DNA from: Burkholderia sp. USMB20
Lineage (GTDB): Bacteria; Pseudomonadota; Gammaproteobacteria; Burkholderiales; Burkholderiaceae
Length of the DNA: 64,000 nucleotides
NCBI RefSeq assembly: GCF_000949135.2
Contig: NZ_JTAN02000005.1
Location: forward strand, 372,001 to 436,000
Direction: 5' to 3'
Each line of letters opens with the position of its first letter. The stretch's first letter is position 1. Shown here piece by piece: positions 1 to 12,592 of the stretch. The notes under the pieces were generated by a model that saw only the letters and a list, made by a program, of their open reading frames with translations, did not search any database and was not told where the DNA came from. The position numbers and the translations under genes are program-made.

Positions 1-748
1 TCAGCGGCACGCCGGGCCCGACTTGCTGGCCCGCCTGCACCGAACGCTGGCCGACCGTGCCGTCGACCGGCGCGACGATCGTCGTGCGCTTCAGGTTCCG
101 GTACGCGAGCTTGAACTGCGCGGCGGCCTGCACGACGGCCGGGCTCTCGTCGACCGGCAGCTTGCTGCCGAGCGCGCGTGCGGCGTCGAGCTGCGCCTGC
201 GCGGCCGCGAGGTTCGCCTGTGCGCCGGCGACGGCCGCGCGGGCGCGCGCCAGCTCCTCCGGCGCGACGATCTCGACCGACGCGCCCGAACGCGCGGCAA
301 GCGCGCGCTGCGCGAGCGACAGGTCTGCCTGGCGCGCGTTCACGGCTGCCACGTACATCGTGTTCGAGATCTTTGCGTTCGCGACCTGCCGCACGGCCTG
401 CGCGAGTTGCGCCTTCGCCTGCGCGAACGCGACGGACGCTTCCGTATCGTCGAGCCGCACGAGCGTCTGCCCGGCACGCACGGGCTGCGTATCGGCGACC
501 AGTACGTCGGTCACGGCGCCCGGAATCTGTGCGGCGACCTGCACGATGCTGCCGGCGACGTACGCGTCGTCGGTATCCTCGTAATAGCGGTCGCGTAGCA
601 GCCAGAACGCGATCCAGACGAGCGCGGCGAGCATCACGATCGCGAAGAACAGCATGAAGCGCTTGCGACGCGTCGCGCGGCGCGCGTCGAGTGCCGGGTC
701 GTTCAGGGCGGCCGGCTGCGCCGCGGTGTGAAGGTTGTCGTGGTGCAT
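1..748 (-). CDS. HlyD/EmrA-type membrane fusion protein (3' part outside window)
   Basis: Periplasmic adaptor that would link the inner-membrane exporter and outer-membrane lipoprotein encoded upstream in the same operon. The visible N-terminal ~249 residues start MHHDNLHTAAQ, then have a basic stretch (ARRATRRKR) and one membrane anchor rich in Phe, Leu and Ala near residues 30-50, followed by the typical DTDDAYV and biotinyl-lipoyl-like beginning, then an Ala/Gln-rich alpha-hairpin, and the return strand ending in TTIVAPVDGTVGQRSV. This is the EmrA/HlyD family layout. The start codon shares one base with the stop of the preceding gene (TGATG), so the two are translationally coupled. The gene runs off the left edge, so about a third is missing. 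Substrate is inferred to be rhamnolipid, from operon context only. Confidence 0.9.
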   Translation of the reverse strand, partial: MHHDNLHTAAQPAALNDPALDARRATRRKRFMLFFAIVMLAALVWIAFWLLRDRYYEDTDDAYVAGSIVQVAAQIPGAVTDVLVADTQPVRAGQTLVRLDDTEASVAFAQAKAQLAQAVRQVANAKISNTMYVAAVNARQADLSLAQRALAARSGASVEIVAPEELARARAAVAGAQANLAAAQAQLDAARALGSKLPVDESPAVVQAAAQFKLAYRNLKRTTIVAPVDGTVGQRSVQAGQQVGPGVPL

Positions 749-2691
749 CAGTCGCTTTGCGTAACGATCAGGCGGTCATGCTGGAACAGGGGGAGCGCGG
801 ACGCGCGCGTGTCGGCGGCGACGGTGGGGGGCGCGTGGCGCGAGCCGACGCCGAGGCTCGTGTTCGTGTTCGTGTTCGTGTTCGTGCTCGTGCTCGTGCT
901 CGTGCTCGTGTTCGTTCTCGTGTTCGTGTTCGTGCTGGTATTTGCGCTGGTGCTCGTGTTCGCGCTGGTACTCATACTCACGGCATCGGCAGCCGGACTA
1001 CGCGGCGCGACCGACACCGCCGGCGGATCGATCCGCGCGGCACGCGGCGCGGCGCCGCTACCTGCCGCGGCCGCGCGCCGCGCTTGCGCGCTGCTGTCCG
1101 CCGAGCTACCGCGGGCAGCGGCGTTCACCGTCGCGCCGCGTTTCGTCCGCGCGCCTTGCGCGGTACGCGCCGCGGGCATCGCCGCACCCGCAGTCGTTGC
1201 GCTCGCATCGAACCCGCCGCCGAGCGCACCGACCAGCCCGACGCGCAGCGTCCGCTGCCGCCCGAGCAGCGCGATCAGCTGCGCACGCTCGTCGATCAGC
1301 GTGAGGTCCGCGACATCGACATCCTTCTGCATCAACACGCCGCGCCGATGGCGATCGGCCGCGATCTGCACGATCTTCTGCGCGGCGGCGACGGCATCCT
1401 GCTGCTGCACGACGAGCGTCTGCGCGGTCTGCAGCGACGTGACGATTTGCGCGACCTGCCCGAGCGCGTCGTCGACGGTCTTGTTGTACAGCCCGATCGC
1501 GACGTCGGCCTGCGCGACGTCCGCGCCGAGCTTCGCCTTCAGCCGGCCGCGATCGAACACCGGCAGCGAGATCGCCGGGCCGACGGAGCCGGCGAGCGAA
1601 TCGCGCGAGAACAGCGACGCGGGTGTCAGCGCGAACACGCCGCCGAGCGCGACGAGGTTCACGTCCGGATAGAACTGCGCTCGCGTCGAATCGGCATTCG
1701 CGAACGCGGCTTCGACGCGCAACCGCGCGGCGACGATGTCGGGCCGGCGGCCGAGCAGATCGGCCGGCAGCCGCGCGGGCAGCGCGCCGCCGGGGAATGC
1801 GCCGACGCGCGGCCGCTGCAACGCGAGCCCGCGCTCCGGCCCGCGGCCGGACAGCACGCCCAGCTGCAATTGCGCGAGCTTGATCTGCTCGTCGTTCAGC
1901 GCGATCTGTGCGAGCAGGCGGCTGCGCTTGATCGACGCGTCGCTCGCGTCGTACGCATTGTCGAGGCCGCGCGCGGTGCGCTCGCGCAGCACGGCCGTCA
2001 CGCGCTGGCTGATCTTCAGCTTCTGCTGCAGCAGATCGCGCACCGCGTACGCCTCATCGAGCTGGCAATACACGGTGACGATCGCGACCGCGAGCGTGAG
2101 CCGCACCTGCTCGGCCTCGACACCGGCCGCGTCGCGCAGCGACATCAGGCTCTTCGTCGCCGCGCGGTTCTTGCCCCACAGGTCGAGCTGGTAGTTCAGC
2201 CCGACGAACACCGACGACGGCGACACGACCGGATCGCCGAAGATCTCGACCGGCACGCGATAACCGCCCGCCGTCACGTCGGCGATGTCGCCCGGCTTCG
2301 GCATCCGCGCGCGGCTGACCGTCGCGCCGGCCGTGCCGGTCAAGCCCGTCAGCGAATCGAACTGCTGAAGCTGCGACTGCGCGATCCGCAGCCGCGCCTG
2401 CGCGACCTGCAGATCCGGATTGTTCTGCGATGCCTCCACGACCAGTTCGTCGAGCTGCGGATCCTGCAGCTGCTTCACCCAGTCGGGCGCGGGCCATGCG
2501 CCATCCGCGCCGGGCCCCGCGGTGCGAGCGAGCGCGTCGCCGGCCGGTGCGCGCAGCGACAGCGACGGCAGGAACCCCGACGGCACGCAGCCGCCCAGCG
2601 CCAGCAGCGCGGCGGCCGCGACGATCGCCCAGCCACCCTGCCCGCGCCGCGCCGGCCGAGCAGCTCGCGCCGCTTTCATGATGCGTTCCAT
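748..2691 (-). CDS. NodT-family outer-membrane efflux lipoprotein with Ser/Thr/Asn tail
   Basis: TolC-like outer-membrane channel of a tripartite exporter. The 647-residue product begins with a basic N-terminus, a hydrophobic segment and a lipobox (LLALGG-C) near residue 35, then two outer-membrane-efflux (OEP) repeats; WPAPDW, NPDLQVAQARLRIAQSQ and LLGRRPDIVAARLRVEAAF are typical of the NodT family. The OEP core ends around residue 510, and the extra ~130 residues are low complexity: Ala/Arg-rich, then alternating Ser-Thr and Asn-Thr dipeptides coded by a hexanucleotide repeat. NodT proteins are normally about 480-520 residues, so the tail is an extension. Start chosen at the first ATG, 8 bases after the rhlC stop; a second Met lies four codons later. 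Coupled to the downstream adaptor gene. Confidence 0.9.
   Translation of the reverse strand: MERIMKAARAARPARRGQGGWAIVAAAALLALGGCVPSGFLPSLSLRAPAGDALARTAGPGADGAWPAPDWVKQLQDPQLDELVVEASQNNPDLQVAQARLRIAQSQLQQFDSLTGLTGTAGATVSRARMPKPGDIADVTAGGYRVPVEIFGDPVVSPSSVFVGLNYQLDLWGKNRAATKSLMSLRDAAGVEAEQVRLTLAVAIVTVYCQLDEAYAVRDLLQQKLKISQRVTAVLRERTARGLDNAYDASDASIKRSRLLAQIALNDEQIKLAQLQLGVLSGRGPERGLALQRPRVGAFPGGALPARLPADLLGRRPDIVAARLRVEAAFANADSTRAQFYPDVNLVALGGVFALTPASLFSRDSLAGSVGPAISLPVFDRGRLKAKLGADVAQADVAIGLYNKTVDDALGQVAQIVTSLQTAQTLVVQQQDAVAAAQKIVQIAADRHRRGVLMQKDVDVADLTLIDERAQLIALLGRQRTLRVGLVGALGGGFDASATTAGAAMPAARTAQGARTKRGATVNAAARGSSADSSAQARRAAAAGSGAAPRAARIDPPAVSVAPRSPAADAVSMSTSANTSTSANTSTNTNTRTNTSTSTSTSTNTNTNTNTSLGVGSRHAPPTVAADTRASALPLFQHDRLIVTQSD
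859..936. repeat. hexanucleotide tandem repeat (13 units) inside the efflux lipoprotein gene
   Basis: On the plus strand there are thirteen consecutive 6-base units, CGTGTT or CGTGCT with one CGTTCT; degenerate copies continue to about 970. On the coding (minus) strand this gives Asn-Thr and Ser-Thr dipeptides (one Arg-Thr). Because the unit is two codons, gain or loss of copies changes tail length without shifting frame. Confidence 0.95.
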
Positions 2692-2699
2692 CGCCGCCC

Positions 2700-3638
2700 T
2701 CACCCCCGCTGGACGCGCCGCGCGCGTGCGGCGAGACGCGGCCGCGTGCGCTCGAGCGGACCGAGCCGCCCGAACAGGCCGTCGGCGATGCCGAACGCGA
2801 TGCCCGCGAGCTTGGCGCGCTTGTCGCGCTCGACGAGCGCGATCTGCACGACCTGCCACACGGTCAGCAGGTTCGGCACGATCGCCACCGGAAAGCGCAA
2901 CCCGTACTGCATCCCGAGCTGCACCGCATTGCGTGCGCTGTAGTAGCGCCGTTGCCACGAGTGATTCATCGACGTCATTTCGAAAGGGCCGAACGCGTGC
3001 CGCTGCTTCGCGCCGATCCGGTGCGGCAGCACCAGCGACGGCACGACGTAGAGCGGCACGTTGCGCGCAAGCGCGCGGAAGCTGTACTCGGTATCGACGT
3101 GATCGATGAACAGCGTCTCGTCGAAGCGGCCGAGCACGTCGAACGCGGCGCGCGACACGACGCAGCCCGACGAGATCAGGAACGCGCAGCGCTGCGGCGG
3201 CGCGTCGGGCGCGAGATGCAGCCGGCGCAACGCGATCCCGTCGGTCGCGAGTTCGGGCAGGAAGCTGCGCGCGTTCTCGTCGAAGATGCGCGGGCCGGCC
3301 AGGAACGCGCGCCCCGCGAGCCCCGTGCAGGCGTCGCGCATCGTCGCGAAGTAACCGGCCGGCACCGACGAATCCTGGTCGAACAGCGCGACCGCGTCGA
3401 CGTCGTCGCGAAACAGCGCCGCGAGCCCCGCGTTGTAGGCGCCCGCGATGCCGCCGCGATTGCCGTGATGCAGCAGCGCGATGCCGTCGCGCGCGCACAC
3501 CTCGCGAGCGCGCGCATCGGGCTGCGGCGTGTTGTCGACGACCAGCAGCGCGTCGCACGCGTGCCGCCACGCGCCGAGCGCCGCGAGCTGCGCGTCGCTC
3601 GGGTGGTACAGGATCACGAGTGCGCCGAGTGTCGTCAT
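2700..3638 (-). CDS. rhlC: rhamnosyltransferase 2 (RhlC), family 2 glycosyltransferase
   Basis: Adds the second L-rhamnose from dTDP-rhamnose to mono-rhamnolipid to give di-rhamnolipid, at the cytoplasmic side of the inner membrane. The 312-residue product matches RhlC in length and layout: an N-terminal nucleotide-sugar domain (LVILYHPS), the FDQD metal/sugar motif at residues 86-89, and the acceptor-side FIDHVDTEYSF motif at 177-187 typical of rhamnosyl GT2 enzymes. It starts 10 bases after the exporter gene, with a GAGGAG ribosome site. Position between the exporter and efflux lipoprotein genes and the presence of rhlA and rhlB upstream make the assignment firm. Confidence 0.93.
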   Translation of the reverse strand: MTTLGALVILYHPSDAQLAALGAWRHACDALLVVDNTPQPDARAREVCARDGIALLHHGNRGGIAGAYNAGLAALFRDDVDAVALFDQDSSVPAGYFATMRDACTGLAGRAFLAGPRIFDENARSFLPELATDGIALRRLHLAPDAPPQRCAFLISSGCVVSRAAFDVLGRFDETLFIDHVDTEYSFRALARNVPLYVVPSLVLPHRIGAKQRHAFGPFEMTSMNHSWQRRYYSARNAVQLGMQYGLRFPVAIVPNLLTVWQVVQIALVERDKRAKLAGIAFGIADGLFGRLGPLERTRPRLAARARRVQRG

Positions 3639-3648
3639 GTCGCTCTCC

Positions 3649-5235
3649 TCAATGTCCGAACGAAGCGGCCGCGCCGCGCTTCGGCCGCGTGAGCCACATC
3701 ATCGCGGCGAGCACGAGGCAGGTCATGCTCGCCATCCAGAACATGTCGCCCGTCGCCATCATGTACGCCTGCTGCATCACGACCTGATGCAGCGTGGACA
3801 GCTCGCGCACGCCGTCCACGCCCATCGCGTTCAGCGTGTGCACGAAGCGCTGCGTGTTCGCCGACGCGTGCGTGACCGATTGCGACACGACGTCGTAGTG
3901 ATAGGTCGCGCGGTTGTCCCACAGCGTCACGCTCATCGCGGTGCCGAATGCGGCGGACAACGTGCGCAGGAAGTTCGACAGGCTCGACGCGGCCGCGAGC
4001 CGGTCGTCCGGGATGCGCGACAGCGTCGCGGCCGTCAGCGGAATGAAGAAACACGGCAGCCCGATTCCCTGGATCAACCCGGGCGCGGCGATCTGCGCGA
4101 ACGTCATCTTCAGCGTGAAATGCGCGTCCCATGCGAGCACGGCCGCAAATATCAGGAATCCGAACGTCGCAAGCACACGCGCGTCGAAGCGATGCGCGTG
4201 CAGGCCGACGAGAATCGAGAACACGAGCGCGAGCACGCCGAGCGACGCGGTGGCGAGCCCCGCGTGGAACGCGTTGTAGCCCATCACCGCCTGCATCCAC
4301 AGCGGGAACACGACGCCCACCACCGAGAAGCTCATCATCCCGAGCGAGATGATCAGCACGCAGAACGAGAACGTGCGGTCGCGAAACAGGCTGAGGTCGA
4401 CGACCGGATGCGCGTCGCCGGCTTCCCAGATCAGCAGCGACACGATCGCGAGCGCCGCGACCACCGCGAGCGTGACGATCAGCGGCGAATCGAACCAGCC
4501 CTTGTCATGGCCGAGATCGAGCATCGCCTGCAGCGAACCGACGCCGATCACGAGCAGCACGATGCCCGGCACGTCGATTGGGCCGGCCGCGCCGCGCTGC
4601 GCGTCGGGGCGCAGCATCGCGGTGCAGACGGCGAACGAGAACAGCCCGATCGGCAAATTGATCAGGAAGATCCACGGCCACGAGAAGCTGTCGACGATCC
4701 AGCCGCCGACCACCGGCCCGAAGATCGGCGCGAGCAGCACCGTCATCGCCCACAGCGCGAGCGCGACCGTGCGCTTGTCCGGCGGGAACGTGCGCAGCAG
4801 GATCGTCTGCGACAGCGGCACCATCGGCCCCGAGCACAGCCCCTGCAGCGCGCGGCAGACCACCAGCACGTGCAGGTCGCGCGCGAGCCCGCACAGCAGC
4901 GACGTCAGCGTGAACAGCAGCACCGCGCCGACGAACAGCCGCAGCTCGCCGACGCGCCGCGCGAGCCAGCCGGTCAGCGGCACCGCGATCGCGGCCGCGA
5001 CCGAATACGAGCTGATCACCCACGTGCCCTGGCTATTCGACACGCCGAGACTGCCGGAAATCGCCGGCACCGCGACGTTCGTCACGGTCGAGTCGAGCAC
5101 TTCGATGAAGGTGGCGAGCGACAGCGCGAACGTCAGCAGCGCGAGCCGCGCACCGCGCACCGGCCGCGCGGCGGCTGCGGGTTCGCGTGCATCGACGGCG
5201 GCGGGCGCGTCCTGAAGCGGCGCTGCGGTACTCAT
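3649..5235 (-). CDS. EmrB/QacA-type (DHA2) 14-TM MFS exporter
   Basis: Inner-membrane proton-driven exporter of the drug:H+ antiporter-2 family, 528 residues. The first membrane segment carries the DHA2 signature around FIEVLDSTVTNVAVPAI (residues ~40-55); GWLARRVGELRLF is the loop 2-3 motif A region, and a GPVVGGWIVD motif C follows. Fourteen hydrophobic segments can be traced. With the lipoprotein and adaptor downstream it forms an EmrAB-TolC-like tripartite pump; its place between rhlB and rhlC implies rhamnolipid or precursor export, which is inference. The start overlaps the rhlB stop (ATGA). Confidence 0.92.
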   Translation of the reverse strand: MSTAAPLQDAPAAVDAREPAAAARPVRGARLALLTFALSLATFIEVLDSTVTNVAVPAISGSLGVSNSQGTWVISSYSVAAAIAVPLTGWLARRVGELRLFVGAVLLFTLTSLLCGLARDLHVLVVCRALQGLCSGPMVPLSQTILLRTFPPDKRTVALALWAMTVLLAPIFGPVVGGWIVDSFSWPWIFLINLPIGLFSFAVCTAMLRPDAQRGAAGPIDVPGIVLLVIGVGSLQAMLDLGHDKGWFDSPLIVTLAVVAALAIVSLLIWEAGDAHPVVDLSLFRDRTFSFCVLIISLGMMSFSVVGVVFPLWMQAVMGYNAFHAGLATASLGVLALVFSILVGLHAHRFDARVLATFGFLIFAAVLAWDAHFTLKMTFAQIAAPGLIQGIGLPCFFIPLTAATLSRIPDDRLAAASSLSNFLRTLSAAFGTAMSVTLWDNRATYHYDVVSQSVTHASANTQRFVHTLNAMGVDGVRELSTLHQVVMQQAYMMATGDMFWMASMTCLVLAAMMWLTRPKRGAAASFGH

Positions 5236-6515
5236 GCGCCCGCCGTCGCGAGGTAGGCCTGCACCCGCGCGCGTCCGTGGTTCGGTGCGAAGCGCTCGAT
5301 GAAATCGGCGGCGCGCTCGCAGCCGTCCGGCGCCGCATCGATCAGCGCACGCGTGCGTTCCGCATGCACCGCGAATTCCGGCTCGTCCAGCACGCGTGCG
5401 AGCGCCGCACCGAGACGCGCGCCGTCGACGGGACCGTCGATGCGCACGCCGGCGCCGCTCGCCGCGACGCGCTGCGCATTGTCGAACTGGTCGTGCGCGA
5501 ACGGCGTCACGACCTGCGGGATCCCGGCTTCGAACGCGAGCGCCGCGGTGCCGATTCCGCCGTGATGCACGAGCGCGCGGCAACGCGGCAGCAGCGCGCG
5601 CATCGGCACGAAGCGGCGCACCAGCAGCCGGTCGCCGTCCGGTGCCGCATCGTGCGGGCTCAGCAGGATGCCGCGCGCGCCGGTGGCATGCAGCGCGTCC
5701 GCGACCGCGCGCGCATACGCGGCGTGATCGACCCGTGTCGACCCGGCCGTGAACATGACGGGCGGCTCACCGGCCGCGAGGAACGCGTCGAGCGCGCGAT
5801 CGTCGTCGGGCGTCGCGATGTCGTTGAACAGCGGAAAACCGCTTTGCAGATGACCGGCCGGCCAGTCGCGCTGCGCCGGTGCGAACCAGTCGGGAAACAG
5901 GCACAGCACGCCGTCGGTCGAATGCAGCCAGCGGCCGAGCACGCGCCGCGCGGGCGCGAGCCCGAGCTCGCGGCGCACCGCGTTGAGCGCCGGCCCGCAC
6001 ACGCGGTCGAGCACCTGCCGCTCGATCAGCGTCATCAGCGCCGCCTTCACCGGCAGCGGCCAGCGCGCGGGAATGGTCAGGCGCGGATGCGTCGGCGGCA
6101 CGTGCGCGGACAGCAGCGTCGACGGCGACACCTGCACCGACACGTACGGCGTGCCGTGCAGCTCCTGCATGAAGCGCGCGGAAAATGCCCACAACGTGCC
6201 GACCAGCACGGTGTCGCGATCGGTCAGCGCGCGCAGCGCGTCGTAGTGCGGACGCAGCACGGGCGCGATCACCTGCCACAGCGTGCGAAACGACGTGCGC
6301 GGATCCCACAGCGCCGGGTTCGCCATCGCGGCCTCGTACTCGGCCGCGGTGCCGACCGGCACGAACGTGAAGCCGCAGCGGCGCGCGGCCGCCTCGAACG
6401 GCGGATGCGTGCAGAACACGACGTCGTGGCCACGCGTCGCGAGCGCGCGCGCGACGCCGAGCAGCGGATGCACGTCGCCCGCCGAGCCGATCGCGGTCAC
6501 GATCACCTTCGCCAT
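5232..6515 (-). CDS. rhlB: rhamnosyltransferase 1 catalytic subunit (RhlB), GT1 family
   Basis: Transfers L-rhamnose from dTDP-rhamnose to the 3-(3-hydroxyalkanoyloxy)alkanoic acid made by RhlA, giving mono-rhamnolipid. The 427-residue product has the GT-B fold marks of family 1: an N-terminal acceptor domain starting VIVTAIGSAGDVHPLLG, and a C-terminal donor domain with FTAGST (~256) and HHGGIGTAALAFEAGIPQV (from 317) followed by PFAHDQFDNA. Length agrees with Pseudomonas RhlB (about 426). It begins 17 bases after the methyltransferase gene and overlaps the exporter start by 4 bases. Confidence 0.94.
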   Translation of the reverse strand: MAKVIVTAIGSAGDVHPLLGVARALATRGHDVVFCTHPPFEAAARRCGFTFVPVGTAAEYEAAMANPALWDPRTSFRTLWQVIAPVLRPHYDALRALTDRDTVLVGTLWAFSARFMQELHGTPYVSVQVSPSTLLSAHVPPTHPRLTIPARWPLPVKAALMTLIERQVLDRVCGPALNAVRRELGLAPARRVLGRWLHSTDGVLCLFPDWFAPAQRDWPAGHLQSGFPLFNDIATPDDDRALDAFLAAGEPPVMFTAGSTRVDHAAYARAVADALHATGARGILLSPHDAAPDGDRLLVRRFVPMRALLPRCRALVHHGGIGTAALAFEAGIPQVVTPFAHDQFDNAQRVAASGAGVRIDGPVDGARLGAALARVLDEPEFAVHAERTRALIDAAPDGCERAADFIERFAPNHGRARVQAYLATAGA

Positions 6516-6532
6516 CGCGCGCCTCGCGGGAG

Positions 6533-7102
6533 TCAGTAGAAGCCGGGGATCAGCGCCGCGACCTCGCGGCGATACTGCGTGTACGCCGGCCCGAAATGGC
6601 CGGTCAGCCAGCTCTCTTCGACACGCACCTTGTACGCGAGCGACGCGAACACGAGCGCGACGCCGAGCGCGCCGCGCCACTCGCCGCCGATCAGCGCGGC
6701 GCCGACCAGCGCGATCAGGCAGCCGGTGTAGATCGGATGACGCACGAGGCCGTACGGGCCCGTGCGAACGAGTTCGTGGTTTTCCTTCAGCGTGACCGAC
6801 ACGCTCCAGTTCGTGCCGAGATGCAGCCGCGCCCACACGGAGAACAGCAGCCCCGCGACGAGCACCGCGAGCCCGCATTGCGCCTGCAGGCCGAAGCGCT
6901 GCCAGTCGGGCACGAGCGCCTGCCACGACGGATCGGGCAGGATGATCAGCGCGCCGCCGACGATCAGCGGAATCGACTGCAGCGTGCGCGAGCGCGACGC
7001 CTCCTTGCGCACGGTCGTCTTCACGGCCTGCGACGTCGCGATCCAGTAGGCGAGCCAGATGGCCCACGGAGCGACGATGGCGATGGTCTGAACGATATTC
7101 AC
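6533..7102 (-). CDS. isoprenylcysteine carboxyl methyltransferase-like integral membrane protein in the rhl operon
   Basis: A 189-residue membrane protein of the ICMT/PEMT-type SAM-dependent methyltransferase superfamily. It has four or more membrane segments (residues ~2-23, 42-57, 74-92, 122-158) and the family's C-terminal SAM-binding block: RTGPYGLVRHPIYTG (113-127), then EE at 162-163 and FGPAYTQYRREVAALIPG (170-187). The GTG start at 7102 is chosen because an AGGCAGG ribosome site precedes it and the only upstream ATG lies inside rhlA. It sits 58 bases after rhlA and 17 before rhlB, so it is co-transcribed. The substrate is unknown; a free carboxyl on a lipid such as the RhlA product or a rhamnolipid is a reasonable guess. 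Confidence 0.88.
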   Translation of the reverse strand: MNIVQTIAIVAPWAIWLAYWIATSQAVKTTVRKEASRSRTLQSIPLIVGGALIILPDPSWQALVPDWQRFGLQAQCGLAVLVAGLLFSVWARLHLGTNWSVSVTLKENHELVRTGPYGLVRHPIYTGCLIALVGAALIGGEWRGALGVALVFASLAYKVRVEESWLTGHFGPAYTQYRREVAALIPGFY

Positions 7103-7160
7103 GGCTGGCCTGCCTCGTGTGGATGAGAATTCGGATGTATCCGGTGCGCGACGTGCTGCG

Positions 7161-8063
7161 TTACGACGACAGCGCCGGCATCGGCGCGGACACGCACGCA
7201 TGCGCGGCGCCGAGCGCGATGCCCGCGGCAACGGGCGGCGCGTCGCAGAAGTAGTCGAGCAGCGCCGCCCGCGTGGCTTCGCGCTGCGCGCGGCCTTCGA
7301 TGTCGAGGAAATGGCCGGCGTCGGGAATCGTCGCGAAGCGTGCGCGCGGCACGTGCGCGGCCAGTTGGCGAACGTCGGCCGGCGTCGTGTATTCGTCGCG
7401 CTCGCCGTTCAGGAACAGCAGCTCGCAGCCGATGTTCGAGAACTCGCTCAGGTAGCGCTCCGGCTGCAGCGACAGGATCTGGTCGACGTGGAACGCGACC
7501 TGGTCCTGCTCGTCGCGCGGCAGCCGCGTCAGATACCGGTAGTTGTACAGCTTCATGATGCGCGGCAGGTAGCGGCCGACCGTATCGTTCAGCAGCTGCG
7601 CGGCCTTCAGGTTCTCGCCGGCCGCGATGTGGTCGCGGGCACGCGTCACGTAGTCGACCATCGCGTCGTTCAGGAACGGCGAGAACGAGCAGATCGCCGC
7701 GCGCCGCACGCTCGGGCAGCCGCGCGCGAGCGCGAACAGCGACGCGACGCCGCCCCACGATACCGACACGAGAAACGCGGGCGCGAAACGCTCGACCAGA
7801 TGCTGGAGGATCGCGGCCTCGTCGTCCTTGGTCAGGATGAAGCAGCCGGGGTTGTGCTGGCGCGACTGCCCCGCGTACGGCAGGTCGAAGCAGATCGTGT
7901 TCATCCGCTCGCCGAGATACTGGACGGTCTGCCCGAACGAGGCGGTCGTCGCGAGCGCGCCGTTGACGAGCATCGCCGTGTCGAACGACGGATCGAACAC
8001 GTTCCGTTCGACGTAGACCTTCAGACCATTCGGTAGCGGGACCACGTATTTTTCGGTCGGCAT
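7161..8063 (-). CDS. rhlA: 3-(3-hydroxyalkanoyloxy)alkanoic acid synthase (RhlA)
   Basis: Joins two 3-hydroxyacyl chains (ACP- or CoA-bound) into the lipid part of rhamnolipid. The 300-residue alpha/beta hydrolase has the nucleophile elbow VSWGG at 101-105 with Ser102, an acid in NGERDEYTTP near 220 and a His in DAGHFLDIEG near 254; NGALATTASF and CFDLPYAGQS are conserved in RhlA. Length matches the Pseudomonas enzyme (295). Start at 8063 has a CCGGAGAA ribosome site. First gene of the operon; its promoter must lie in the AT-rich region 8064-8782. Confidence 0.94.
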   Translation of the reverse strand: MPTEKYVVPLPNGLKVYVERNVFDPSFDTAMLVNGALATTASFGQTVQYLGERMNTICFDLPYAGQSRQHNPGCFILTKDDEAAILQHLVERFAPAFLVSVSWGGVASLFALARGCPSVRRAAICSFSPFLNDAMVDYVTRARDHIAAGENLKAAQLLNDTVGRYLPRIMKLYNYRYLTRLPRDEQDQVAFHVDQILSLQPERYLSEFSNIGCELLFLNGERDEYTTPADVRQLAAHVPRARFATIPDAGHFLDIEGRAQREATRAALLDYFCDAPPVAAGIALGAAHACVSAPMPALSS

Positions 8064-8782
8064 CGTCGTTCTCCGGTGGATGCGGCGTCTCGGCGTCGCG
8101 GCATGCTGCAGGTGCGCAATGGCGGGCGCCGGCCCTGTCGCGGTCGTTGGCCGCGCCCATTGCCGACGCACCGCGGGAATAACCCGCGGCGCCGATTCAT
8201 TCCTTGTGGTGCGGCGCCATACTAATACGGGCAATATTACTTACTCAAGTCATTCCAACGATCCCCTCTACTCCACCTGGAAATACGCCAGATTCGAATA
8301 TTTTTGGCATTTTTTATGGTATGCGGAATCGATCAGAAGGTGGCGGCAATCGTTTGCGAGCGAGCCTTAAATCAATGGCACAACCAAATCATTTCCTTTA
8401 AATTCAAATAGATAAAATGTTTTAATCGATCGATTGAAGCGAGTTTTCAGAAATTTCCGTTAGCGGCGCCGGGCAATCGAATTTCCGGATTTACGAGAAT
8501 TTCACATAGCTCGACATTCTTTCGTTAAGTAATAAATCGAATCCGGAAACATTCGCGGCCATTGCACCGTCTTTACTGAAACCGTTTTAAACAAACTTCA
8601 AATTATTTAACCACCTTTCAATCTGTTTTTCCGCACGTGCACAATCGCGGCGGCATCGTCGGCTTGGTTCCTCCACCCTTCCATCTACCGTCGGACCCCG
8701 ATTTTTTATTGATTGAACGGTCAATAAAAAACCGCTAAGCTCTCGACTTCCAGGAACGGCCCGTCCGGGCGAAGGAGTCGCA
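8064..8782. other. AT-rich divergent control region between rhlA and betI
   Basis: No gene found. By hand count 8221-8640 holds 168 G+C in 420 bases (40%), against a clearly GC-rich surround. It carries the rhlA promoter (leftward) and the betI promoter (rightward). I could pin down only the BetI operator at 8703-8741; no convincing lux box was seen. Low G+C in a non-coding stretch ahead of a secondary-metabolite operon suits H-NS/MvaT-type binding, which is inference. Confidence 0.75.
8703..8741 (+). promoter_or_regulatory. betIBA promoter and BetI operator
   Basis: Perfect inverted repeat TTTTTATTGA (8703-8712) / TCAATAAAAA (8721-8730) with 8-base spacer; an inner palindrome ATTGA-ACGG-TCAAT (8712-8725) matches the core of known BetI sites. 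A plausible sigma-70 promoter overlaps: TTGAAC (8713-8718), 17 bases, TAAGCT (8736-8741). BetI would therefore repress by covering the -35 box until choline is present. Confidence 0.8.
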
Positions 8783-9367
8783 ATGCCGAAAGTCGGAATG
8801 CGGGAGATTCGTCGCGCGCAGTTGATCGACGCGACGCTGCGCTCGATCGACGAAGCCGGCCTGCCCGGCACGACGCTCGCCTCGGTCGCGCAGCGCGCGA
8901 ACATCTCGACGGGGATCGTCAGCCACTACTTCGGCGACAAGGACGGCCTGCTCGAAGCCACGATGCGGCACGTGCTGCGCGATCTGTGGGCGGCCACCAC
9001 GCGCCGCCGCGTCGCCGCCCGCAAGGACCCGCGCTCCCGGCTGCGCGCGATCGCCGCCGCGAACTTCGACGTCACGCAGGTCAGCACGCCCGTGATGAAG
9101 ACCTGGCTCGCGTTCTGGTCGCAGAGCATGCACGACGCGATGCTCAAGCGCCTGCAGCACGTGAACACGCGGCGCCTCCATTCGAACCTGTGCGCGGAAT
9201 TCGCCAAGGCGCTGCCGCGCGCGAAAGCACGGGAAGCCGCCAGCGGCCTCGCCGCGCTGATCGACGGCCTGTGGCTGCGCGGCGCGCTCGCCGGCGGCCC
9301 GATCGACACCCGGGCTGCACTGAAGCTCACCCACGATTACATCGACCTGCTGCTCGCGTCCGACTGA
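8783..9367 (+). CDS. betI: TetR-family choline-responsive repressor BetI
   Basis: Represses the bet genes and is released by choline. 194 residues, the usual BetI length. The N-terminal HTH is clear ([31 protein letters not shown], split around residues 30-60), preceded by [17 protein letters not shown]. The C-terminal ligand domain contains [12 protein letters not shown] and [15 protein letters not shown], diagnostic of BetI. First gene of betIBA, 32 bases before betB; its own operator overlaps the promoter, so it is autoregulated. Confidence 0.96.
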
Positions 9368-9399
9368 CGCGTCGCGCACTCGCCCTCAAGGAGATCCTC

Positions 9400-10869
9400 A
9401 TGTCCGTATACGGTTTGCAGCGCCTCTACATCGGCGGCGGTTACGTCGACGCCACCAGCGGCAAGACTTTCGACACCTTCGATCCCGCCACCGGCGAACT
9501 GCTCGCGCAGGTGCAGCAGGCGAGCGCGGCCGACGTCGACCGCGCGGTCGCATCGGCGCAGGAAGGCCAGCGCGAATGGGCCGCGATGACCGCGATGCAG
9601 CGCTCGCGCATCCTCCGGCGCGCGGTCGACCTGCTGCGCGAACGCAACGACGAACTCGCGGCGATCGAGACGCGCGACACCGGCAAGCCGATCGGCGAGA
9701 CGCTCGCGGTCGACATCGTCACCGGCGCGGACGTGATCGAGTACTACGCGGGCCTCGCGACCGCGATCGAAGGGCTGCAGGTGCCGCTGCGCGCCGAGTC
9801 GTTCGTCTATACGCGCCGCGAGCCGCTCGGCGTGTGCGCGGGCATCGGCGCATGGAACTACCCGATCCAGATCGCCTGCTGGAAGACCGCACCCGCGCTC
9901 GCGGCCGGCAACGCGATGGTGTTCAAGCCGAGCGAGGTCACGCCGCTCACCGCGCTGAAGCTCGCGGAAATCTATACGGAAGCCGGCGTGCCGGCCGGCG
10001 TGTTCAACGTCGTGCAGGGCGACGGTTCGGTCGGCGCGCTGCTGACCGGCCATCCGGACATCGCGAAGGTGTCGTTTACCGGCGGCGTCGAGACCGGCAA
10101 GAAGGTGATGTCGCTGGCCGGCGCATCGTCGCTGAAGGAAGTGACGATGGAGCTCGGCGGCAAGTCGCCGCTGATCGTGTTCGAGGATGCCGACCTCGAC
10201 CGCGCCGCCGACATCGCGGTCACCGCCAACTTCTTCAGCTCGGGCCAGGTCTGCACCAACGGCACGCGCGTGTTCGTGCACGGCTCGGTGAAGGACGCGT
10301 TCACGCAGAAGGTGCTCGAACGCGTGAAGCGCATCCGCGTCGGCAAGCCGACCGATGCCGACACCAACTTCGGCCCGCTCGTGTCGGCCGCGCAGCTCGA
10401 CAAGGTGCTCGGCTTCATCGAGAGCGGCAAGGCCGAAGGCGCGAAGCTGCTCGCGGGCGGCACGCGCCTGACCGACGGCCACTTCGGCAACGGCCAGTAC
10501 GTCGCGCCGACCGTGTTCGGCGACTGCCGCGACGACATGAAGATCGTGCGCGAGGAGATTTTCGGGCCGGTGATGAGCATCCTCGAATTCGCATCGGAAG
10601 ACGAAGTGATCGCCCGCGCGAACGACACGCACTACGGCCTCGCGGCCGGCGTCGTGACCGAGAACCTGTCGCGCGCGCACCGCACGATCCACCGCCTCGA
10701 AGCCGGCATCTGCTGGATCAACACGTGGGGCGAATCGCCGGCCGAGATGCCGGTTGGCGGATACAAGCAATCCGGTGTCGGACGCGAGAACGGCATCACG
10801 ACGCTCGAACACTACACTCGAATCAAGTCGGTACAGGTCGAGCTCGGCCGTTACAACCCGGTGTTTTGA
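9400..10869 (+). CDS. betB: betaine aldehyde dehydrogenase
   Basis: Oxidises betaine aldehyde to glycine betaine with NAD(P)+. 489 residues, matching the family. Visible marks are the cofactor-binding PWNYP-like [21 protein letters not shown], the general base Glu in [11 protein letters not shown] and the catalytic Cys in [11 protein letters not shown] (~286). C-terminal [13 protein letters not shown] and the ending ELGRYNPVF are BetB-like. AAGGAG precedes the ATG at 9400. Middle gene of betIBA; stop lies 22 bases before betA. Confidence 0.96.
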
Positions 10870-10891
10870 GAACGAGAGGAGATTCCCCGTC

Positions 10892-12592
10892 ATGACGACA
10901 CGCGAATACGACTACATCATCTGCGGCGCGGGCTCCGCGGGCAACGTGCTCGCGACGCGCCTGACGGAAGATCCGAATGTCACGGTGCTGCTGCTCGAAG
11001 CGGGCGGCCCCGACTACCGCTTCGACTTCCGTACGCAGATGCCGGCGGCGCTCGCCTATCCGCTGCAGGGCCGTCGCTACAACTGGGCCTACGAGACCGA
11101 CCCCGAGCCGCACATGGACAACCGCCGGATGGAATGCGGCCGCGGCAAGGGGCTCGGCGGCTCGTCGCTGATCAACGGGATGTGCTACATCCGCGGCAAC
11201 GCGCTCGACTACGACAACTGGTCGACGCACAAGGGGCTCGAGAACTGGACCTATCTCGACTGCCTGCCGTACTTCAAGAAGGCCGAGACGCGCGACGTCG
11301 GCCCGAACGATTACCACGGCGGCGACGGCCCCGTGTCGGTCACGACCAGCAAGCCGGGCGTGAATCCGCTGTTCGAGGCGATGGTCGATGCGGGCGTGCA
11401 GGCCGGTTATCCGCGCACCGACGACCTGAACGGTTATCAGCAGGAAGGGTTCGGCCCGATGGACCGCACCGTCACGCCGAAGGGCCGTCGCGCGAGCACC
11501 GCGCGCGGCTATCTCGACCAGGCGCGCGCGCGGCCGAACCTCGAGATCGTCACGCACGCGCTCGCCGATCGCATCCTGTTCGACGGCAAGCGCGCATCGG
11601 GGGTCACGTACCTGCGCGGCAGCGAGCGCGCGACCGCGCATGCGCGCCGCGAAGTGCTCGTGTGCAGCGGCGCGATCGCATCGCCGCAACTGCTGCAGCG
11701 CTCGGGCGTCGGCCCCGGCGCGTGGCTGAAGGAACTCGACATCCCCGTCGTGCTCGACCTGCCCGGCGTCGGCCAGAACCTGCAGGATCACCTGGAGATG
11801 TACATCCAGTACGAGTGCAAGGAGCCGGTGTCGCTGTATCCGGCGCTCAAGTGGTGGAACCAGCCGAAGATCGGCCTCGAATGGATGCTGAACGGCACCG
11901 GCCTCGGCGCGACCAACCACTTCGAGGCGGGCGGCTTCATCCGCACGCGCGACGACGACCTGTGGCCGAACATCCAGTATCACTTCCTGCCCGTCGCGAT
12001 CAACTACAACGGCTCGAACGCGATCGAGATGCACGGTTTCCAGGCGCACGTCGGTTCGATGCGTTCGCCGAGCCGCGGCCGCGTGAAGCTGCGCTCGCGC
12101 GACCCGAACGATCATCCGAGCATCCTGTTCAACTACATGGCCGAAGCGCTCGACTGGCGCGAGTTCCGCGATGCGATCCGCGCGACGCGCGAGATCATGC
12201 GGCAGCCCGCGCTCGACCGCTATCGCGGCCGCGAGCTGAACCCGGGCGCCGATTGCAAGACCGACAAGGAACTCGACGCGTTCGTGCGGGCCCGCGCTGA
12301 AACCGCGTTCCATCCGTCGTGCTCGTGCAAAATGGGTTACGACGACATGGCCGTGGTCGACGAGGAAGGCCGCGTGCACGGGCTCGACGGGCTGCGCGTG
12401 GTCGACGCGTCGATCATGCCGATCATCACGACCGGCAACCTGAACGCGCCGACGATCATGATTGCAGAGAAGATCGCCGACAAGATCCGCGGACGCAAGC
12501 CGCTCGCGCGTGTCGACGTGCCTTACTTCGTCGCGAACGGCGCGATGGCGCGCAATGTCGCGAAGGCGGTTCGGCAGCCGGAAACGGCATAA
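10892..12592 (+). CDS. betA: choline dehydrogenase (GMC oxidoreductase)
   Basis: Membrane-associated FAD enzyme oxidising choline to betaine aldehyde. 566 residues, standard for BetA. N-terminal dinucleotide fold [20 protein letters not shown] signature [17 protein letters not shown] (~85-100), second GMC signature [16 protein letters not shown] (~262-277) and the active-site His in HPSCSCKMG (~470), then the C-terminal [16 protein letters not shown]. Last gene of the operon, followed 40 bases later by a terminator. With betB it converts choline to the osmoprotectant glycine betaine. Confidence 0.96.

Follow-up and report, generated by a model that had tools for sequence, protein, structure and literature searches.

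A probable rhamnolipid methyltransferase gene, rhlM, between rhlA and rhlB in Burkholderia sp. USMB20

Rhamnolipid methyl esters are made by Paraburkholderia kirstenboschensis F3 (Liu et al., 2024, PMC11069360). In this strain, the methyl esters disappeared upon deletion of rhlM, a gene with the locus tag RW095_02150 that lies downstream of rhlA and is annotated as encoding an ICMT family protein; the mutant still produced HAAs and unmethylated rhamnolipids, and a plasmid copy of rhlM restored the esters. The methyl group was labelled by deuterated methionine. An rhlB deletion mutant contained HAAs, but no methylated HAAs were detected in it, from which the authors conclude that methylation is the final step. 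The same study names H122 and E162, from a model, as the SAM contacts of RhlM, and associates the methyl esters of P. kirstenboschensis with stronger surface activity, antifungal activity and swarming. According to its authors, rhlM occurs in one of two Burkholderia subclades and, a single exception aside, is absent from the second; they also mention that a nonionic rhamnolipid is made by B. lata (Gauthier et al., 2024, as cited in PMC11069360). Before that, Germer et al. (2020, PMC7054101) had noted for both B. cenocepacia and B. ambifaria that a "methyl transferase" ORF separates rhlA from rhlB, and a 2025 paper calls rhamnolipid production by B. cenocepacia unreported (PMC12004965).

The window, i.e., the whole 64,000-nucleotide stretch of Burkholderia sp. 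USMB20 DNA analysed here, contains a seven-gene rhl cluster on the minus strand, in the order rhlA-rhlM-rhlB-MFS-rhlC-nodT-adaptor:

7161-8063, minus strand: rhlA, HAA synthase with an alpha/beta hydrolase fold, first gene of the cluster (gene order and 98% identity to the B. ambifaria gene of locus L051)
6533-7102, minus strand: rhlM orthologue, 189-residue ICMT/PEMT-type integral membrane methyltransferase (from a GTG start codon at 7102 to the end of the stop codon at 6533)
5232-6515, minus strand: rhlB, rhamnosyltransferase 1 (gene order and 93% identity to B. ambifaria L051; EryCIII-like_C and Glyco_transf_28 in a scan of 5232-6494)
3649-5235, minus strand: EmrB-type MFS efflux transporter, overlapping rhlB by 4 bp (TIGR00711, 468.3 bits, cut-off 230.2)
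2700-3638, minus strand: rhlC, rhamnosyltransferase 2 (TIGR01556 rhamnosyltransferase, 213.6 bits, cut-off 200.55)
748-2679, minus strand: NodT-type outer-membrane efflux protein with a repetitive C-terminal stretch (TIGR01845, 312.9 bits, cut-off 210.05)
2-748, minus strand: EmrA-type periplasmic adaptor, running off the window (best model PRK15136, with 188.7 bits for the portion inside the window, under a cut-off of 563 that applies to the whole protein)

No library model names RhlA or RhlB, and the L051 cluster used for naming these two genes is the one described in PMC7054101. An earlier note on this DNA had reported a 189-residue ICMT/PEMT-type protein between rhlA and rhlB. This is confirmed, with 58 bp separating the gene from rhlA and 17 bp from rhlB on a common strand, and the strand, on which that note was silent, is minus. 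The plus-strand reading of 6533-7102 (frame 1) is open but rich in Arg, Asp and Gln, and was rejected. From rhlA down to nodT, the successive gaps are 58, 17, -4, 10 and 20 bp. A transcript common to rhlM and the neighbouring rhl genes is plausible from the sequence, since a terminator scan of 2600-8800 gave none on the cluster strand. A promoter scan returned none, against 0.5 expected by chance, and is not informative. At the 3' end of nodT, a short tandem repeat (856-966; periods of 6, 12 and 18 bp) encodes a tail rich in Thr, Ser and Asn. Upstream, across about 720 bp, a divergent group of genes (8783-12592) starts with a BetI-type TetR regulator, beyond which lie betaine aldehyde and choline dehydrogenase-like genes, as judged by eye from their translations.

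The reading frame of rhlM is not a chance one, as 50 of the 65 genomes examined in the genus contain full-length matches with at least 75% identity. The window protein is 88-98% identical to the matches in 46 genomes of the genus, 98% identical to that of genome G013 and 88-96% identical to those of 30 Burkholderia loci, and the strain probably belongs to the cepacia-complex side of Burkholderia. Compared with close relatives, the median Ka/Ks of rhlM was 0.138 (range 0.076-0.451 over 61 overlapping comparisons), against 0.147 for rhlA (n = 56) and 0.215 for rhlB (n = 57), the gene sets not being mutually independent. Hence, the constraint on rhlM is about the same as that on rhlA, and purifying selection acts on the gene in many members of the genus.

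At the protein level, the SAM-binding block proposed in the earlier note was found in full: HPIYTG at residues 122-127, EE at 162-163 and FGPAYTQYRREV at 170-181, in a protein with several hydrophobic stretches. H122 and E162, the published SAM contacts, thus occur at identical numbers. Both residues were invariant in all 64 distinct sequences compared (52 rhl-linked and 12 distant); because the distant relatives that are not linked to rhl genes also have them, they mark the wider family rather than RhlM and are necessary but not specific. The Pfam models for PEMT (PF04191, 52 bits, cut-off 25) and ICMT (PF04140, 50.1 bits, cut-off 24) both exceed their cut-offs, cover the same stretch and score alike, so that the acceptor is not decided by sequence. 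The NCBI equivalog model for protein-S-isoprenylcysteine O-methyltransferase (NF040696) gave 79.3 bits, far under its cut-off of 160, which fits an enzyme acting on a substrate other than isoprenylcysteine. The best sequence match in the PDB was a Methanosarcina acetivorans enzyme (4a2n; query residues 24-186, E 2.7e-11), followed by the insect ICMT entries 5v7p and 5vg9 with E about 5e-6 (5vg9: query residues 74-186, E 5.9e-6); two more weak matches were to other proteins. In a tree of 33 of the 64 distinct sequences, 21 rhl-linked proteins were separated from other ICMT-like proteins by a branch with a support of 94/98, whose first value falls slightly short of the 95 that the tool sets as its mark; 94% of the bootstrap trees contained this split. 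Several distant sequences were long-branched and their own placement is unsure.

A survey of 398 sampled genomes of the family gave 73 RhlM matches at E 1e-20 or better, which form two sets by identity. All 66 matches with at least 59% identity followed an rhlA match of the same strand at a distance of 51-153 bases, and none of the seven with at most 51% identity adjoined rhlA. Counted per genome with the same thresholds, 66 carried both genes, 0 the high-identity rhlM alone, 8 rhlA alone and 324 neither. The earlier note had asked whether the gene always lies between rhlA and rhlB; in the high-identity set, it directly follows rhlA without exception. Besides, in the 74 loci that were read, which come from overlapping collections and are not independent, rhlA precedes rhlM in every case and rhlB is directly next in 73, the exception being the Verrucomicrobiaceae locus L062 considered below. 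Eight of the 74 rhlA-bearing genomes have no rhlM beside rhlA (six belong to this genus, two to others), in agreement with the subclades described for Burkholderia, one with rhlM and one without it. A relic or substitute gene in such clusters was sought and rejected on the basis of two loci: in L087 and L088, the rhlA and rhlB matches are 209 and 261 bp apart with no rhlM match (E 1e-6, 45 bits). L087 holds one of the two rhlA copies of genome G018, neither of which has rhlM beside it. The rhl cluster is not intact everywhere, since rhlA looks damaged in two rhl-linked genomes. In G044 (L078, 5135-6032), the rhlA match is split into two pieces that overlap and lie in different frames, and one of them contains an internal stop; each of rhlM, rhlB, MFS, rhlC and nodT matches as a single stretch there. 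In G373, one stop lies within the rhlA match (G373:C2:203769-204599).

The distant relatives were considered separately, as the earlier note had pointed to wide occurrence away from rhl genes beside another conserved partner as an observation that would speak against a role in rhamnolipid synthesis. Only relatives with at most 51% identity were found off rhlA and their neighbours were mixed, and another conserved partner was rejected on this ground. The neighbour scan covered ten proteins, eight from the distant loci L080, L081, L082, L086, L089, L090 and L084, and no match to rhlA, rhlB or rhlC was seen in the stretches of distant loci examined (just 5.9 kb for L064). Some non-rhl neighbours are shared among L081, L082, L089 and L090, where the RhlM-like genes have about 38-51% identity: mdoG in L082, with the same cluster in L081 (two genomes of one genus), and a glutathione S-transferase gene in L089, with the same cluster in L090 (two Rhizobium megaplasmids). 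In L086 (G195, 18-7951), a 31% relative is flanked on one side by a polyketide synthase gene with a zinc-type dehydrogenase and on the other by a fatty acid hydroxylase gene, the latter recalling the rhlM-like genes of Rhodanobacter, which are reported to have a fatty acid hydroxylase beside them (PMC11069360). In L080 (G018, 2014-6880), a 38% RhlM-like gene follows genes for an AMP-binding/carrier/thioesterase protein and a luciferase-like monooxygenase, a biosynthetic-looking context for a putative ICMT-type enzyme.

Taken together, we consider with a probability of roughly 0.95 that the gene is rhlM, and that its inner-membrane product would bind SAM and methylate the free carboxylate of the rhamnolipid made by RhlA, RhlB and RhlC, giving an uncharged ester that is probably exported by the pump. 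For the window copy, this is based on close homology, operon position and conserved residues, from which we infer both the activity in this strain and the export by the pump. The methylation of the rhamnolipid carboxyl suggested in the earlier note is the activity demonstrated genetically for rhlM of P. kirstenboschensis F3 (PMC11069360), to which the window copy is tied by homology. The note's interpretation is right in substance and not new, because the position of the gene was published in 2020 (PMC7054101) and its function in 2024 (PMC11069360).

Two other roles have to be weighed. One is that RhlM works as a phospholipid N-methyltransferase, or more generally as an ICMT-type enzyme, and simply has its gene in this operon. 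The PF04191 score, slightly higher than that of ICMT, and the location of the relatives with 31-51% identity, off rhlA in seven of seven family cases, could be taken in this sense. Against it, all 66 matches of at least 59% identity lie beside rhlA, 0 sampled genomes have the gene at this identity without rhlA, and the P. kirstenboschensis deletion lost the methyl esters and kept unmethylated rhamnolipids and HAAs (PMC11069360); we regard this role as extremely improbable. Only marginally better placed, and still very improbable, is the proposal that methylation by RhlM takes place on HAA, or on mono-rhamnolipid, ahead of the steps catalysed by RhlB and RhlC. The gene order rhlA-rhlM-rhlB would suit this sequence of events, and a free carboxylate is, by established chemistry, common to HAA too. 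However, gene order is weak evidence, and the rhlB deletion in P. kirstenboschensis accumulated no detected methylated HAAs in spite of the presence of HAAs (PMC11069360). Because of this mutant chemistry in Paraburkholderia, the main substrate of RhlM is likely to be the finished di-rhamnolipid rather than HAA.

Methylation of the finished rhamnolipid by RhlM could then proceed as follows. RhlA, RhlB and RhlC would produce di-rhamnolipid, which would partition into the inner membrane. RhlM would bind SAM via its C-terminal block (H122, E162) and transfer the methyl group onto the rhamnolipid carboxylate, and the resulting neutral methyl ester may exit through the EmrAB-NodT-type pump of the same cluster. 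In this scheme, the methylation has been shown genetically in a relative, and the other steps are drawn from gene content and the published model. As methylation takes away the negative charge of the rhamnolipid, the strains that keep rhlM (the 50 of 65 genomes of the genus mentioned above) may make nonionic rhamnolipids. Searching for the acid form alone could then miss the product, a point to be compared with the statement that B. cenocepacia production is unreported (PMC12004965). Among the nearest species, the report of rhamnolipid production in the literature considered here is the B. lata one cited in PMC11069360.

Similar clusters were also found in two metagenome-assembled genomes (MAGs) from outside Burkholderiaceae. 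In a Ferrovum MAG (L061, 6966-15268), the genes rhlA-rhlM-rhlB-MFS-rhlC-nodT-adaptor are in the order of the window, with an RhlM 65% identical to that of the window. In a Verrucomicrobiaceae MAG (L062, 7105-14022), the arrangement is rearranged to rhlA-rhlM-MFS-nodT-adaptor, with an RhlM 60% identical to that of the window; a weaker rhlB-like match (36%) is located after an HlyD-type adaptor gene, and no rhlC match was found in the locus. If the binning of these MAGs is right, the rhl cluster including rhlM might have moved far beyond Burkholderiaceae, a suggestion that we make tentatively and hold to be somewhat less probable than its opposite. Uncharged rhamnolipids or related lipids would then be made in another family and in another phylum. 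The presence of rhl clusters with rhlM in Ferrovum and Verrucomicrobiaceae MAGs is perhaps a new, if minor, point.

Compared with described systems, the F3 protein is the closest counterpart by function. Like RhlM of the window, it is described as an ICMT-family membrane protein encoded directly after rhlA in an rhl cluster, with H122 and E162 at the same numbers (PMC11069360); it comes from another genus and is likened here by description, the link passing through proteins from other genera of the family with 59-79% identity. The ORF of Germer et al. (2020, PMC7054101) occupies the same position, and RhlM of the window shares 94% identity with the corresponding protein of B. ambifaria (L051) and 96% with that of B. 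cenocepacia (L059); the passages of that paper on this ORF do not discuss its function. Among the proteins of known structure, the M. acetivorans enzyme 4a2n belongs to the ICMT family, as RhlM of the window does by sequence, and its substrate is given as not determined (PMC11069360), whereas the insect ICMT 5vg9 has a longer chain, of 288 residues, and acts on prenylated proteins (PMC11069360). Lastly, the rhl clusters of B. thailandensis and B. pseudomallei (Dubeau et al., 2009, PMC2804600) contain rhlA, rhlB, rhlC and transport genes, as in the window. Unlike in the window, the remaining ORFs of these clusters are all called transport-related in the description given there, which makes no mention of a methyltransferase.
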